DNA of 38,103 bases from an uncultured Bacteroidales bacterium (lineage in GTDB: Bacteria; Bacteroidota; Bacteroidia; Bacteroidales; P3): the NCBI GenBank assembly GCA_900318175.1, contig ONJQ01000024.1, positions 1-38,103 on the forward strand, read 5' to 3'. The notes below the pieces were generated by a model. The model had not been told where the DNA came from, searched no databases, and was given only the letters and a program-made list of their open reading frames with translations. Positions 14,348 to 17,516 of the stretch are shown piece after piece. Position numbers and translations under genes: made by a program. The stretch's first letter is position 1, and every line of letters starts with the position of its first letter.

Positions 14348-14436
14348 ATTCAGAAATGATGTTTTATTCATTTTTATTCTTCTGTATCAGTTCGTTCTGT
14401 AAGCAAAGGCATCTTTTCCAATGCTCATTGCGACTG

Positions 14437-14466
14437 CAAAGATACTATTATTTCTTGAATTACAAG
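14437..14466 (-). promoter_or_regulatory. Promoter of the czc operon
   Basis: On the minus strand CTTG (14466-14463) and TATCTTTG (14444-14437) stand 18 bp apart, a good Bacteroides-type promoter. The predicted start, near 14430, gives a leader of about 80 nt before czcB. Confidence 0.72.
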
Positions 14467-14469
14467 AAA
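14451..14469. promoter_or_regulatory. Inverted repeat over the czc -33 element (possible operator)
   Basis: TTTCTTG (14451-14457), five bases, then CAAGAAA (14463-14469): a perfect 7-bp inverted repeat that includes the -33 box and most of the promoter spacer. A bound dimer here would block RNA polymerase. Confidence 0.5.
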
Positions 14470-14481
14470 AAATTATTGATA

Positions 14482-14501
14482 AACGATAAATTTTTATCGT
14501 T
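14482..14501. promoter_or_regulatory. Inverted repeat upstream of the czc promoter (possible operator)
   Basis: AACGATAAA-TT-TTTATCGTT: perfect 9-bp arms around two bases, ending about 15 bp upstream of the -33 box. Symmetry and place suit a dimeric metal sensor or activator; no such gene is nearby, so the regulator is unknown. Confidence 0.55.
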
Positions 14502-14538
14502 CATGGCTTGTTGCAGGCCTCCTTTTAGTCCATAGTAA

Positions 14539-14658
14539 CTTCGCTCCTTCTTGTATTCTTTGCCCTCATTTCGGGGTTCATTTGTCCAATGATATTCGAA
14601 GAAATATTAGAGAAATGAGGAACAACTGACCCAGAAGGAGCGAAGGAAGGGCAAAGAA
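14539..14658. repeat. Interleaved inverted repeats in the czcB-islet intergenic region
   Basis: Three arm pairs: 14539-14551 with 14633-14645 (13 bp, CTTCGCTCCTTCT), 14556-14566 with 14648-14658 (11 bp, TTCTTTGCCCT), and 14564-14572 with 14612-14620 (9 bp, CCTCATTTC). All are perfect. The first two pairs cross rather than nest, so they cannot form one simple hairpin. The block is part of a 380-bp gene-free stretch (14510-14889) with otherwise only the 37-bp repeat. It may be a remnant of a mobile element or a structured element; I see no credible gene in it. Confidence 0.65.
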
Positions 14659-14736
14659 AGGGAGAGGAAGGATTTCTGCAACAGAGCGTTGAGGAATGGA
14701 AAACAGAGAGGGGACACATGCCGTCAGGGGCAAAAG

Positions 14737-14773
14737 AAAAGGACAACCCGTTTGAGTTGTCCTTCTTAGGTAG
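14737..14773. repeat. 37-bp direct repeat, left copy (contains a terminator hairpin)
   Basis: Identical to 17264-17300. Inside it AAGGACAAC (14739-14747) and GTTGTCCTT (14756-14764) form a 9-bp stem. On the minus strand the stem is followed by TTTTCTTTT, so it can end transcription of the islet genes. The identity stops just where the right copy enters the tRNA acceptor sequence. Confidence 0.85.
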
Positions 14774-14889
14774 GCTCAAATGCCTTTTTTTCGCACCGAT
14801 TCCTTGAAGACCTTGAGAAGATATGGGCATTACGGGAGTACATTCCCAACCCAACCGATCACACCTTTAATAGGTTTACATCCTTGGGA

Positions 14890-15879
14890 CTATGAGATAT
14901 TTTGTGGCAAATCATAATTTAAGTATGTGTCAGTATACCATTTGCCCCAGTCTCGGAGAGCGGAATCCGAACAAGAAATAGCGGCATCTACTATTGTTGT
15001 TGGATGAAAAACAGAAAACAATACTGGGTCTACGATAGCCCTAAATTGCTTGAGTGAATTATTCAAGGCTATGTTGTCATGAGGTTTTACCACTGAAAAA
15101 AAGACCTTATCGTAATGGTATTCTTCTTGTGCTGCTTTAACCAATAGAGTATTACGCCACAATTGACACATTCCATCCATAAAGGGGCATCCATTTTCAA
15201 AAATATCCAAGTTCGGGAAAGCTTCGATGTATTTTTTTGTTAATTGCCAATAGTTGAAGTGCCGAGCATGACAGTAGTAGCAGTCTTCATCATTGTTCAT
15301 TAGATGTTGTGCTGTGTAATTAGAGCATTTCGCTAACAACTCCTTATGCTTCCCGTTATGGACGGCATTGCATTGAGTGAATTCAGTTTCTGTAAGTTTA
15401 TGTTCTACAAGCCAAAGGCAATGTCTATTTTCATTGTCAATATACGACAACGCAAAATCCGCATCTGTTCCTGCCGTTTTCGAATGGTCATTTAGTAATC
15501 CTTTTGAGCCATCGTTGGGTCTCGGATTATCACGCCAGTATTCAAAAGTAAAGCCATCTGAGATGTGACTTTTATCGATACTTGCGATATCAGTTTTTAC
15601 CGTTTTAAGAACGTCCACAGCACATTCGGATTCCATAATTGGTAAAAAAAGATTAATGCAGGCTGCTTGAGAACTCGCCACATGAGGCTGTATTACGAAT
15701 CGATGGAAATCAAATCCATGTTTTTCTTGAAGTTCAAAAATTTTTCCCCGTATACCAGAGTAAAAGAGATTCTTTGAGTCTGATAAAAACACCGACTCTC
15801 CTGTTCCGAACTGTTTTTTCAGATGTTTATACATCTTCTCTTGAAATGCATTCATGTCTATATTTTGTATTTTTGGCAT
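14890..15879 (-). CDS. Probable PD-(D/E)xK nuclease with cysteine cluster
   Basis: 329 residues, no signal peptide. The stretch TDADFALSYID (Asp139, Asp141) followed by CLWLVEHKLTETE (Glu159-His-Lys161) has the D...E-x-K arrangement of PD-(D/E)xK nucleases, at the right spacing and with a hydrophobic strand before the E-x-K. Six cysteines follow within 70 residues (170, 185, 200, 203, 231, 238), including a CxxC, suggesting a bound iron-sulfur cluster or zinc as in Cas4/AddB-type nucleases. It resembles the PGN_0703-like restriction-endonuclease-type proteins of Bacteroidota, from memory. It is the last gene of the islet and overlaps the gene before it by 53 bp. A defence role is likely but inferred. 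The start could also be the ATG at 15855. Confidence 0.75.
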   Translation of the reverse strand: MPKIQNIDMNAFQEKMYKHLKKQFGTGESVFLSDSKNLFYSGIRGKIFELQEKHGFDFHRFVIQPHVASSQAACINLFLPIMESECAVDVLKTVKTDIASIDKSHISDGFTFEYWRDNPRPNDGSKGLLNDHSKTAGTDADFALSYIDNENRHCLWLVEHKLTETEFTQCNAVHNGKHKELLAKCSNYTAQHLMNNDEDCYYCHARHFNYWQLTKKYIEAFPNLDIFENGCPFMDGMCQLWRNTLLVKAAQEEYHYDKVFFSVVKPHDNIALNNSLKQFRAIVDPVLFSVFHPTTIVDAAISCSDSALRDWGKWYTDTYLNYDLPQNIS

Positions 15880-16093
15880 TTTCTTTTTGTGCTTTAATTA
15901 GGCTTTCAAGTTCATGACGGAAGCACCAGCAATTTCCATCGTGTGCTGGATGAAGACTAATTTTTATTCCTAATCTTAAAGCATCTTTTAGTCGCATATT
16001 ACCGGAACGCTTGGTCATATACACTGCGTATTCCTCACTTACCCATTCTCCATTGATAGTTCTGACAAGATGCCATTGGTATTTTTGTGTCAT
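15827..16093 (-). CDS. Small protein of unknown function in the islet
   Basis: 88 residues. It begins with MTQKYQWHLVRTINGEWVSEE, a strand-turn-strand opening rich in aromatics, then a basic helix (RLKDALRLGIKISLH) and a Cys-x-Cys segment (GNCWCFRHELESLIKAQK). No signal peptide. Its ATG overlaps the stop of the upstream 171-residue gene by 4 bp (ATGA), and its 3' end overlaps the nuclease gene, so the three are translationally coupled and probably act together. It could be a partner or specificity subunit of the nuclease; nothing in the sequence proves that. Confidence 0.7.
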   Translation of the reverse strand: MTQKYQWHLVRTINGEWVSEEYAVYMTKRSGNMRLKDALRLGIKISLHPAHDGNCWCFRHELESLIKAQKENAKNTKYRHECISREDV

Positions 16094-16605
16094 GCTAATT
16101 CATATACTGGGGTTAGTACTTTATTAATATCAAATTCATCATCGGATTCATCCGTCGGTGTGGATAGTCTTAATTCACCATTACGTATATTGCAGTCAAC
16201 CAAGAGTGTCAGTGGATAAATGCCATCTCCAAAGATGGGATATCCATCCTCATCAAGGTCAGTCATAAATGCAGAGTCAATCCCGTACACAAAAATTGAC
16301 TTGCTATACAAGTCCATATTATGGTTTGCATCTGGGTCACATAATGCGTCAAAGTGCTTTCCTTGCGTTAAATCCATTCCGTAAGATAAGATAGGTTCTG
16401 CATGGCATGATTTTGCCAATAAATCCATTGTTCGTGCATTAGCATACAAATAAAGTGCATACTCACCACTATGTTTCTTATGAAAGTCGAACTCGAATTC
16501 CTTAACAACTTCGCGAAATGCGATGCCATCACAAATTCGACATCCATTTGTATCAAAGCCATTTTCGTCAAAAAAGTATGTCTCGCTTATTTCTCTTTCC
16601 ATCAT
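16090..16605 (-). CDS. Acidic protein of unknown function in the islet
   Basis: 171 residues, rich in Asp and Glu (for example STPTDESDDEFDINKV near the C-terminus). The N-terminus contains a Cys-x-x-Cys pair (TNGCRICDG). A histidine-lysine stretch (FDFHKKHSGEYALYLYANAR) and several strand-like segments (YSKSIFVYGIDSAFM, IYPLTLLVDCNIRNGELRL) follow. No signal or membrane segment. The strong acidity could point to a DNA-mimic or chaperone-like partner, but this is speculation. It is coupled to the 88-residue gene by an ATGA overlap and lies 47 bp after the 109-residue gene. Confidence 0.72.
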   Translation of the reverse strand: MMEREISETYFFDENGFDTNGCRICDGIAFREVVKEFEFDFHKKHSGEYALYLYANARTMDLLAKSCHAEPILSYGMDLTQGKHFDALCDPDANHNMDLYSKSIFVYGIDSAFMTDLDEDGYPIFGDGIYPLTLLVDCNIRNGELRLSTPTDESDDEFDINKVLTPVYELA

Positions 16606-16652
16606 ATATAATCATCAATTACCCGTTGTGCAGGATTTGCAATCCGGCACTT

Positions 16653-16982
16653 CTATAGAGGACGGTTGGCTTTATCTGCCATATTCTGTGAATGCTCTGC
16701 GTCGTGTATGACCGCTTGGATTCTGTTGTGAGTGAAAGCGTAGTGCCAACGGGTTTGAATGGAAGAGACATCTGTCCATCCCCTTTCGTTCCACAATGAC
16801 AAATAGGAAGGATTGACAATATGGCATCCATCGGGAATACCATTGTCAAGAGCCAACATCTCGGTTTTTATCTTTCGGAGGATAATGAGAACTGCTTCTC
16901 GTGAAAGGGTGTTGTGATAAAGCAGTGCGTTTTCGTAGAATTTTTTAACACGTAGCGACGCGCGTTGCCTTATGATAGCCAT
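16653..16982 (-). CDS. Basic helical protein of unknown function in the islet
   Basis: 109 residues, basic at the N-terminus (MAIIRQRASLRVKKFYENAL), then a helix with REAVLIILRKIKTEML, a central segment with SLWNERGWTDVSSIQTRWHYAF and a short C-terminal tail. No signal peptide. The W-x-Y-A-F phrase and the basic helices would suit a nucleic-acid-binding protein, but I do not recognise the family. Its start overlaps the 3' end of the 61-residue gene by 38 bp in another frame. Confidence 0.65.
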   Translation of the reverse strand: MAIIRQRASLRVKKFYENALLYHNTLSREAVLIILRKIKTEMLALDNGIPDGCHIVNPSYLSLWNERGWTDVSSIQTRWHYAFTHNRIQAVIHDAEHSQNMADKANRPL

Positions 16983-17130
16983 TTTTTACAACCTCTTTTG
17001 CATCGTAATGTATGTTCACCATTTCTTCCATTAGCTCAAAGAACGTATTGACTTCCATATCGGTACGTTCCTCGTTCTCGTCAAACTTGTCAAGGTTGTC
17101 AAACACCCATCTGTCGCGTTCTGTTATCAT
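16945..17130 (-). CDS. Small acidic protein, first gene of the islet
   Basis: 61 residues: MITERDRWVFDNLDKFDENE, then FFELMEEMVNIHYDAKEVV and a basic tail. It is small and acidic and precedes a small basic protein with overlapping genes, an arrangement reminiscent of two-gene toxin-antitoxin or inhibitor pairs; no family match supports this. A promoter element (17154-17161) lies 23 bp upstream. Support is the conserved operon spacing only, so it may not be a real gene. Confidence 0.5.
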   Translation of the reverse strand: MITERDRWVFDNLDKFDENEERTDMEVNTFFELMEEMVNIHYDAKEVVKNGYHKATRVATC

Positions 17131-17153
17131 AATAATTGCTTTCTTTCAATGTG

Positions 17154-17161
17154 CAAAAATA
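17154..17161 (-). promoter_or_regulatory. Promoter -7 element for the islet genes
   Basis: TATTTTTG on the minus strand matches TAnnTTTG and lies 23 bp before the ATG at 17130. No -33 match at 18-19 bp. It suggests the islet is transcribed from its own promoter, independent of the tRNA. Confidence 0.45.
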
Positions 17162-17263
17162 CAATTATTTTTTGATATAGTAGTAAAAAGATAGAAGAAA
17201 GTTGTTTTAAAATATATAGAAAGATCTTTAAGTTATTGGTAGCAGGAGGGTTAAGGGCAATAA

Positions 17264-17297
17264 AAAAGGACAACCCGTTTGAGTTGTCCTTCTTAGG

Positions 17298-17300
<3 letters not shown>
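17264..17300. repeat. 37-bp direct repeat, right copy (tRNA 3' edge plus terminator)
   Basis: Identical to 14737-14773. It spans the tRNA terminator hairpin (AAGGACAAC 17266-17274 with GTTGTCCTT 17283-17291, then TTTTTTATT on the minus strand) and the last three bases of the initiator tRNA. The base beyond it belongs to the tRNA acceptor stem, where identity ends. Confidence 0.85.
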
Positions 17301-17369
<69 letters not shown>

Positions 17370-17398
17370 CTCTGTTATTTCTGTCTTGAAATCGTTTG

Positions 17399-17429
17399 CA
17401 AAAGTACTACTTTTTTGCGACATGGCAAA
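17399..17429 (-). promoter_or_regulatory. Promoter of the initiator tRNA gene
   Basis: TTTG (minus strand, 17429-17426) and TACTTTTG (17406-17399), 19 bp apart, match the Bacteroides consensus. The predicted start is near 17392, about 23 nt before the mature tRNA. Confidence 0.7.
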
Positions 17430-17516
17430 ATGTTGTCGGCCTTTTGCCGGAAAATTAACAAATGGTAATTTAGGAATCAAGTTGTTATGAATTGACTTTA
17501 ACATAGGGAAAAATAA

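Follow-up and report, generated by a model that had tools for sequence, protein, structure and literature searches.

How a small, AT-rich group of genes came to lie between two direct repeats beside the initiator tRNA gene (tRNA-fMet), and what could have moved it, is the question raised by contig ONJQ01000024.1 of an uncultured Bacteroidales bacterium (GenBank assembly GCA_900318175.1; GTDB lineage Bacteroidota, Bacteroidia, Bacteroidales, P3). The whole stretch analyzed, 38,103 nucleotides in length, is referred to as the window, and the roughly 2.5 kb between the repeats as the islet. We consider it likely that the islet is a non-autonomous integrative element, and that its distal end, away from the tRNA, is an attachment (att) half of a Bacteroidales element family, the full members of which encode a large serine recombinase (LSR) adjoining the last bases of tRNA-fMet. 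As judged from sequence comparisons, the locus combines (i) a conserved distal end; (ii) the usual 5-bp core; (iii) an empty site in a relative; (iv) exchange of cargo; and (v) recent transfer of the half that encodes a nuclease. Relatives are designated by G numbers and individual loci by L numbers.

An inserted islet, part of which moved recently

The two perfect 37-bp direct repeats reported in an initial annotation of this DNA are indeed identical (Table 1) and can be extended to 51 bp at 92% identity. They are the only two copies in the 2.9-Mb assembly, even when up to three mismatches are allowed, rather than examples of a sequence widespread in the genome. Five minus-strand open reading frames (ORFs) lie between them, encoding, in order of transcription, proteins of 61, 109, 171, 88 and 329 amino acids (p61, p109, p171, p88 and the nuclease); neighboring frames overlap by 53, 4 and 38 nt, and the single gap, between p109 and p171, is 47 nt. 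The GC content is 0.385 as opposed to 0.56 on each side, making the islet the GC minimum of the window when 2.49-kb stretches are compared in steps of 50. Gene arrangement and composition are as first described, as is the right-hand repeat in that it contains a terminator and the end of tRNA-fMet, but the tRNA bases inside it number five, not three. ARAGORN calls this gene tRNA-Met(CAT), and we take it to be the initiator because its letters show the 5' U/3' U mismatch and GGG/CCC anticodon stem that distinguish it. In an Rfam scan of positions 14400–17500, the tRNA alone reached the gathering score.

Searching with tRNA-fMet gave a match in 56 of 59 genus genomes, 39 of which supplied the 40 stretches that were fetched. 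Insertion of an accessory cassette beside the tRNA, as initially proposed, is borne out by several observations. First, G064 has an empty site, with a single repeat copy (36 of 37 positions), no islet, flanks of 88–90% DNA identity and the same two flanking genes as in the window, which we take to encode an RND-type adaptor and a DsbD-like protein; G018 provides a second empty site. Second, the genes are far from being carried by all relatives, the nuclease being present in only 2 of 61, with G013 as the other carrier. Third, the copies in these two genomes are nearly identical. An imperfect inverted repeat was also seen just outside the islet, at window positions 14539–14658, and a similar one, by eye, at the empty site of G064.

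In G013, which represents another species of the genus, the nuclease, p88 and p171 are spread over two contigs, and tRNA-fMet is on one of these. Alignments of 743 bp at 98.8% DNA identity and of 1131 bp at 96.6% link its nuclease half with that of the window, while 8 kb of neighboring chromosome matches in seven pieces only: five at 63–73%, one of 78 bp at 76%, and one of 83 bp at 88% that is a tRNA-Leu gene. Since the nuclease half is nearly identical while the backbone matches only in pieces, this segment appears to have moved recently, and, on the strength of these alignments, between species. The p88 gene of G013 is broken at the contig junction, at about codon 70 (L044 1–100, L045 1–90), with GGATAATCATT at both broken ends; judged from these inverted ends, an insertion sequence probably interrupts it. 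Beside the G013 islet, a short-repeat array with GCTTCGGCAAAAATGCCGAAG occupies L045 1260–1640.

A shared distal end and a short core

Both ends could be read in 13 elements, and the stretch common to the two was counted up to the end of the core. Because exactly GGTAG, the last five bases of the tRNA, is shared in seven of these 13 elements, the 37-bp repeat was rejected as the att core. The stretch is of other length in G116 (8 nt), G013 (10), the window (37), G105 (at least 45), G017 (4) and G122 (1). What lies beyond GGTAG in the 37 bp is the tRNA terminator. A core as short as this suits a serine recombinase, which speaks against a tyrosine integrase at this locus.

Beyond the core, the distal end reads GGTAGGCTC...TTTTCGCACC. 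With at most three mismatches, this motif was found in 17 of 119 genus genomes, and reversed-pattern controls gave none. Two sequences were dropped, G101, whose fetched stretch shows neither terminator nor tRNA, and G002, which diverges past about 30 nt. This left 15 relatives that share the islet's distal end, LSR carriers among them, to which the window, with four mismatches, was added; the diverged distal ends of G017 and G004 were picked up later, on scanning the fetched tRNA loci. A hairpin is seen by eye just outside the core in all 15 kept sequences. In nine of these, and in the window, tRNA-fMet lies on the element side, while the other six stretches reach a contig end. As anticipated for an insertion site, relatives sharing this distal end hold other cargo at the same tRNA.

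Twelve elements, 0.97–7.0 kb in size, are delimited, i.e., have both ends on one contig. An LSR is present in three of them and absent from nine, the window's islet included. In G087 (L105, L098), the LSR end at tRNA-fMet and the distal end sit on separate contigs, and this element is therefore not counted as delimited. Read in this way, the islet would be an attL/attR-type element whose attachment-half relation to the autonomous family holds fully for its distal half, the proximal half being native-type.

The recombinase of the complete relatives

G036, G113 and G004 encode an LSR of 524 amino acids whose frame runs through the element end into the tRNA. In G036 and G113, one protein combines the Pfam domains Resolvase, Recombinase and Zn_ribbon_recom, the last scoring just below its 25.3-bit cut-off in G036 (24.4 bits) and above it in G113 (26.1 bits). 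LSR matches were obtained in 14 of 118 genomes (E ≤ 1e-60); the seven LSRs with 69% identity or more are all located at tRNA-fMet, and their frames run into it.

The conserved distal end bears the marks of coding sequence in the same frame. Pairwise differences among 15 sequences (G122 left out here and in part of the terminator comparison) are distributed 356/263/1061 over the three codon positions, no stop occurs within the first 32 codons in any of 16 sequences, and the translated tail fragment reads VGS.VIFSHRFLEDLEKIW.... Since the coding frame of the distal end is the one that would continue the LSR, we infer that attP lies inside the LSR gene, a fragment of whose tail is left at the far end. 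Integration would then leave the LSR frame reading into the tRNA and the original C-terminal tail at the opposite end of the element. In LSR carriers, the hairpin of the LSR itself would replace the tRNA terminator, and the native terminator would be pushed to the far side. The LSR-less islet of the window would have been moved in trans by an LSR of this family, and its two terminators would have become alike after integration.

The five islet ORFs matched no recombinase or transfer family above chance in Pfam, PADLOC, PHROGs or NCBIfam; the mobility first suggested for the cassette is supported, but it is most likely owed to a serine recombinase not encoded in the islet. No tyrosine integrase was matched among the five islet proteins, the ORFs of relatives being judged by reading only. 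Resolvase-like ORFs were read by eye in G036 (231 aa, with a weak 31% match over 84 aa) and G004 (216 aa), and none was noticed in G113. G098 (L113, about 2040–2330) contains an LSR remnant, a short piece of tRNA-fMet and part of the LSR tail, resembling a deletion scar. An LSR scan of viral contigs found no relative, and a match across the att joint in G310, at 36–38% identity with an internal stop, was not used.

The wider family at tRNA genes

When an alignment of ten LSRs was used as the query, 60 loci were found, labeled in the databases mostly as ruminant and other gut Bacteroidales, with some Flavobacterium. In 53 of the 60, an antisense (head-on) tRNA lies within 3–63 nt of the end of the LSR match, nine anticodons being represented, and the LSR frame enters the tRNA in all but one of the 53. 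The loci without a head-on tRNA are L173, L181, L206, L208, L212, L220 and the fragment L223.

Within the last 58 nt before the tRNA, a terminator-like hairpin (a stem and a T-run on the tRNA strand) is present in 48 of the 53 loci, compared with 12 of 424 control windows taken further up the same loci. The mean folding energy of this stretch is −19.0 kcal/mol versus −7.8 kcal/mol in the controls, and is below that of the controls from the same locus in 52 of 53 cases. Because many of the 60 loci are related, neither the tRNA nor the hairpin counts represent independent events. For ends of the tRNA-fMet type, both within that clade and outside it, with rows chosen by their GGAC stem, 11 distinct hairpins show pairing in 100% of cells and 11 double changes, a result reached in none of 500 shuffles. 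The peptides encoded by the hairpins of LSR carriers vary with them (e.g., DKPTDLS, DLPVDKS).

We tentatively extend this picture to tRNA-targeting Bacteroidota LSRs with attP in their own gene: the C-terminal tail may be swapped for one encoded by the tRNA, the last codons may double as a replacement terminator, and LSR-less passengers that use the same ends may form a cassette system spreading genes for lipoproteins, outer-membrane proteins and defence-like functions at the initiator tRNA.

Terminator arrangement and alternative origins

Displacement of the native terminator fits some elements. At 30–36 of 40 positions, distal terminators match those of element-free relatives in 6 of 18 cases (the window, G105, G036, G070, G113 and G087). 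G036, G070 and G113 have an LSR-type proximal terminator and a distal one that matches at 31–36 of 40, and G087 agrees across its two contigs, with 31 of 40 distally and an LSR end of the usual type. G116 has LSR-type terminators at both ends, and G129, by eye, keeps an LSR-type terminator together with nearly the leader and p61 of the window.

Several results weigh against the mechanism outlined above: (i) the remaining 12 of the 18 distal terminators match no element-free relative at 30 or more of 40 positions; (ii) the window and G105 have the same native-type terminator at both ends; (iii) the order is reversed in G027 and G017, the native-like terminator being proximal; (iv) no LSR of this family was found in the window's genome at E ≤ 1e-60, a threshold that leaves room for weaker relatives, so that the islet looks stranded; (v) no joined attP was seen, the 46 pattern matches in viral contigs including none with an LSR relative, and L212, tried as a free attP, proved ambiguous; and (vi) the G013 islet is split across two contigs and is without p109 and p61. 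The odd terminators imply either that the proximal ends of several LSR-less elements were exchanged later or that the terminator model is wrong. We read them as later exchange at the proximal end, and this is the weakest part of the model.

The missing recombinase would also be accounted for if a full LSR element had lost its LSR and transfer genes in place, leaving a decayed relic that is now fixed and, in its small form, immobile. Scars in relatives, such as that in G098, agree with such decay, and the G013 copy lies on two contigs of a genome that is 83% complete, where the gap could hide a lost LSR, none having matched there. Yet the nuclease half is 97–99% identical to that of G013 despite the piecemeal match of the backbone, so that the small form itself probably moved, and the nine of 12 delimited elements without an LSR have ORFs of cargo size. 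We therefore regard a relic as unlikely.

Still less probable is spread by ordinary homologous recombination, in which DNA taken up would have recombined through the conserved flanks of tRNA-fMet or through terminators while no site-specific recombinase acted on the small form. This would draw on the conservation of tRNA-fMet and would accommodate both the alike terminators of the window and G105 and the swapped ones of G027 and G017, which site-specific crossover alone leaves unexplained. However, it does not predict that the distal breakpoints of 16 genomes coincide in core and motif, and the chromosome neighboring the G013 islet was not co-transferred. An island of the kind usual at tRNA genes, whose tyrosine integrase has been lost, is highly improbable since an LSR gene is found in complete relatives that share the distal end, even though the tRNA 3' end is described as a typical target of tyrosine integrases in PMC4383910.

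Islet proteins and the cargo of related elements

Passive movement by a family LSR, which we continue to favor, leaves the role of the cargo to be considered. The last gene, first annotated as a probable nuclease, is the only one of the five that is recognized, by Pfam (REase-ARP, 79.3 bits with the cut-off at 27, E 4.7e-22), and its TDAD (138) and VEHK (158) are motifs typical of PD-(D/E)XK enzymes. At the search sensitivity used, no relatives of the nuclease were found in plasmids, phages or IMG/VR. Among 340 class genomes, both the nuclease and p171 were found only in their own genome. PHROGs and NCBIfam gave only weak, chance-level matches for the five proteins, a p109 scan of viral contigs found no relative, and searches of solved structures returned nothing for p109 and one chance-level match for the nuclease.

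We lean slightly toward a restriction-like or abortive defence function for the nuclease, and a defence role of the islet cargo, serving host or element through a PD-(D/E)XK-type nuclease and two partner proteins, is plausible. Against this part of the interpretation, none of the five proteins matched a PADLOC family at E ≤ 1. The small p61 and p109 overlap and are acidic (isoelectric point (pI) 4.6) then basic (pI 9.5), with no family match above cut-off. In six of eight other loci with p109 matches, p61 lies beside p109, which is cut short in three; the two loci without p61 are among the weakest p109 matches. Whether these two form a toxin–antitoxin-like pair is, from these features, an even call; such a pair may stabilize the element.

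Different genes, here read from the ORFs, are carried by other elements that share the tRNA and the distal end: a 286-aa lipoprotein-like protein in G070, small lipoprotein-like proteins in G071 and G116, zinc-ribbon-like proteins in G036, an outer-membrane barrel-like protein in G027 (Pfam below cut-off), and an ATPase with a small partner in G017 and G092, that of G017 matching PADLOC PDC-M29A at 1.6e-57. In G021, an AbiEii-like protein is encoded 3' of tRNA-fMet, and the scan of fetched tRNA loci found no distal end there; between the adaptor gene and tRNA-fMet, this locus (L038) holds a transposase-like ORF and the AbiEii-like protein with a small partner. Defence-like cargo is recurrent, but not universal, in tRNA-fMet elements.

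Seven elements (G071, G105, G116, G070, G027, G086 and G036; loci L050, L092, L093, L042, L043, L090 and L039) share a conserved leader that takes up about the first 500 bp counted from the distal end and contains a promoter-like TTGTATATTTGCA stretch as well as repeats resembling hairpins; the cargo behind it is unrelated. In the six of these loci scanned with Rfam, the tRNA alone reached gathering score. Proteins of 308 aa in G113 (L097) and 295 aa in G004 (L047) are replication-initiator-like by reading; no family scored above cut-off, in Pfam for the first only and in NCBIfam for both.

Table 1. Features of the islet and its tRNA target in the window
Feature	Position	Strand	Remarks
Distal repeat copy: native-type terminator and core GGTAG (14769–14773)	14737–14773		Matches the empty-site terminator of G064
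Distal element end, putative remnant of the LSR C-terminal coding tail	14769–14895	+	Frame from 14770, stop TGA 14893–14895; similarity to relatives reaches about 14853
329-aa nuclease, REase-ARP (PF22558)	14890–15879	−	Pfam
88-aa basic protein (p88)	15827–16093	−	53-nt overlap with nuclease
171-aa acidic protein (p171), pI 4.3	16090–16605	−	Also with p88 and nuclease in G013
109-aa basic protein (p109), pI 9.5, putative toxin-like member of the module formed with p61	16653–16982	−	
61-aa acidic protein (p61), pI 4.6, putative antitoxin-like half	16945–17130	−	38-nt overlap with p109
AT-rich operon leader	17131–17263	−	By eye almost the same as the leader 3' of tRNA-fMet in G129
Proximal repeat copy: terminator directly 3' of tRNA-fMet and core GGTAG (17296–17300)	17264–17300		
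tRNA-fMet(CAT), proposed integration target	17296–17369	−	ARAGORN, Rfam

Relation to known systems and implications

In staphylococci, SCC elements target a protein gene, and the archaeal integrases of the SSV type are tyrosine recombinases that have attP inside their gene and are split by integration. The family described here would resemble the latter in having attP within the recombinase gene; it differs in being of the serine type and in that the C-terminal tail alone would be cut off. SCC elements (CcrAB) are likewise serine-recombinase cassettes at one chromosomal site (PMC3146451).

Tyrosine integrases were described in 2014 as the only ones known to target tRNA genes (PMC4383910), and serine-mediated tRNA integration was described as rare in 2011 (PMC3218068), the examples being mycobacterial AICEs in tRNA-Leu and phage phiRSM1 in tRNA-Ser. 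These likewise place a serine recombinase at a tRNA gene, in other hosts and elements, whereas nine anticodons are represented here in Bacteroidota. Closest in logic are the Dehalococcoides islands at the tmRNA gene ssrA, which, in the sections of PMC3146451 available, encode the LSR DsiB with a small DsiA and include islands without an integration module; in a marine relative, the att repeat lies within dsiB. Shared features are the LSR, a stable-RNA 3' target, att in the LSR gene (as it appears to be here), varied cargo and module-less forms; the smaller serine recombinase that accompanies the LSR there may have a counterpart in the resolvase-like ORFs read in G036 and G004. The phylum is different, as are the targets (tRNA-fMet and other tRNAs instead of ssrA), and the crossover is at the extreme 3' end rather than in the T-loop; a terminator-like hairpin at the LSR gene end is unmentioned for the Dehalococcoides islands in those sections. 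As in the islet, CIMEs keep attL and attR with integration and transfer genes gone (PMC5704250), but the islet is of a recurrent, free-standing form that apparently moves between species and is not only a partner in accretion.

Literature searches, which mostly did not reach subscription journals, showed no description of this LSR family, nor do the available parts of PMC12884075, PMC6764341 and PMC9745183. Within the literature searched, a Bacteroidota tRNA LSR family, an LSR gene end that would double as a terminator, and LSR-less cassettes that appear to move between species are therefore new.

The head-on tRNAs in 53 of 60 loci and the hairpins in 48 of these 53 suggest a rule by which such enzymes may use essential RNA genes harmlessly. 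If the proposed exchange of the C-terminal tail upon integration is correct, it would provide a possible built-in integration switch. The family may supply tRNA-directed integrases for use in gut Bacteroidales, and its shared ends would offer a ready route to small, recombinase-less, defence-like cassettes.

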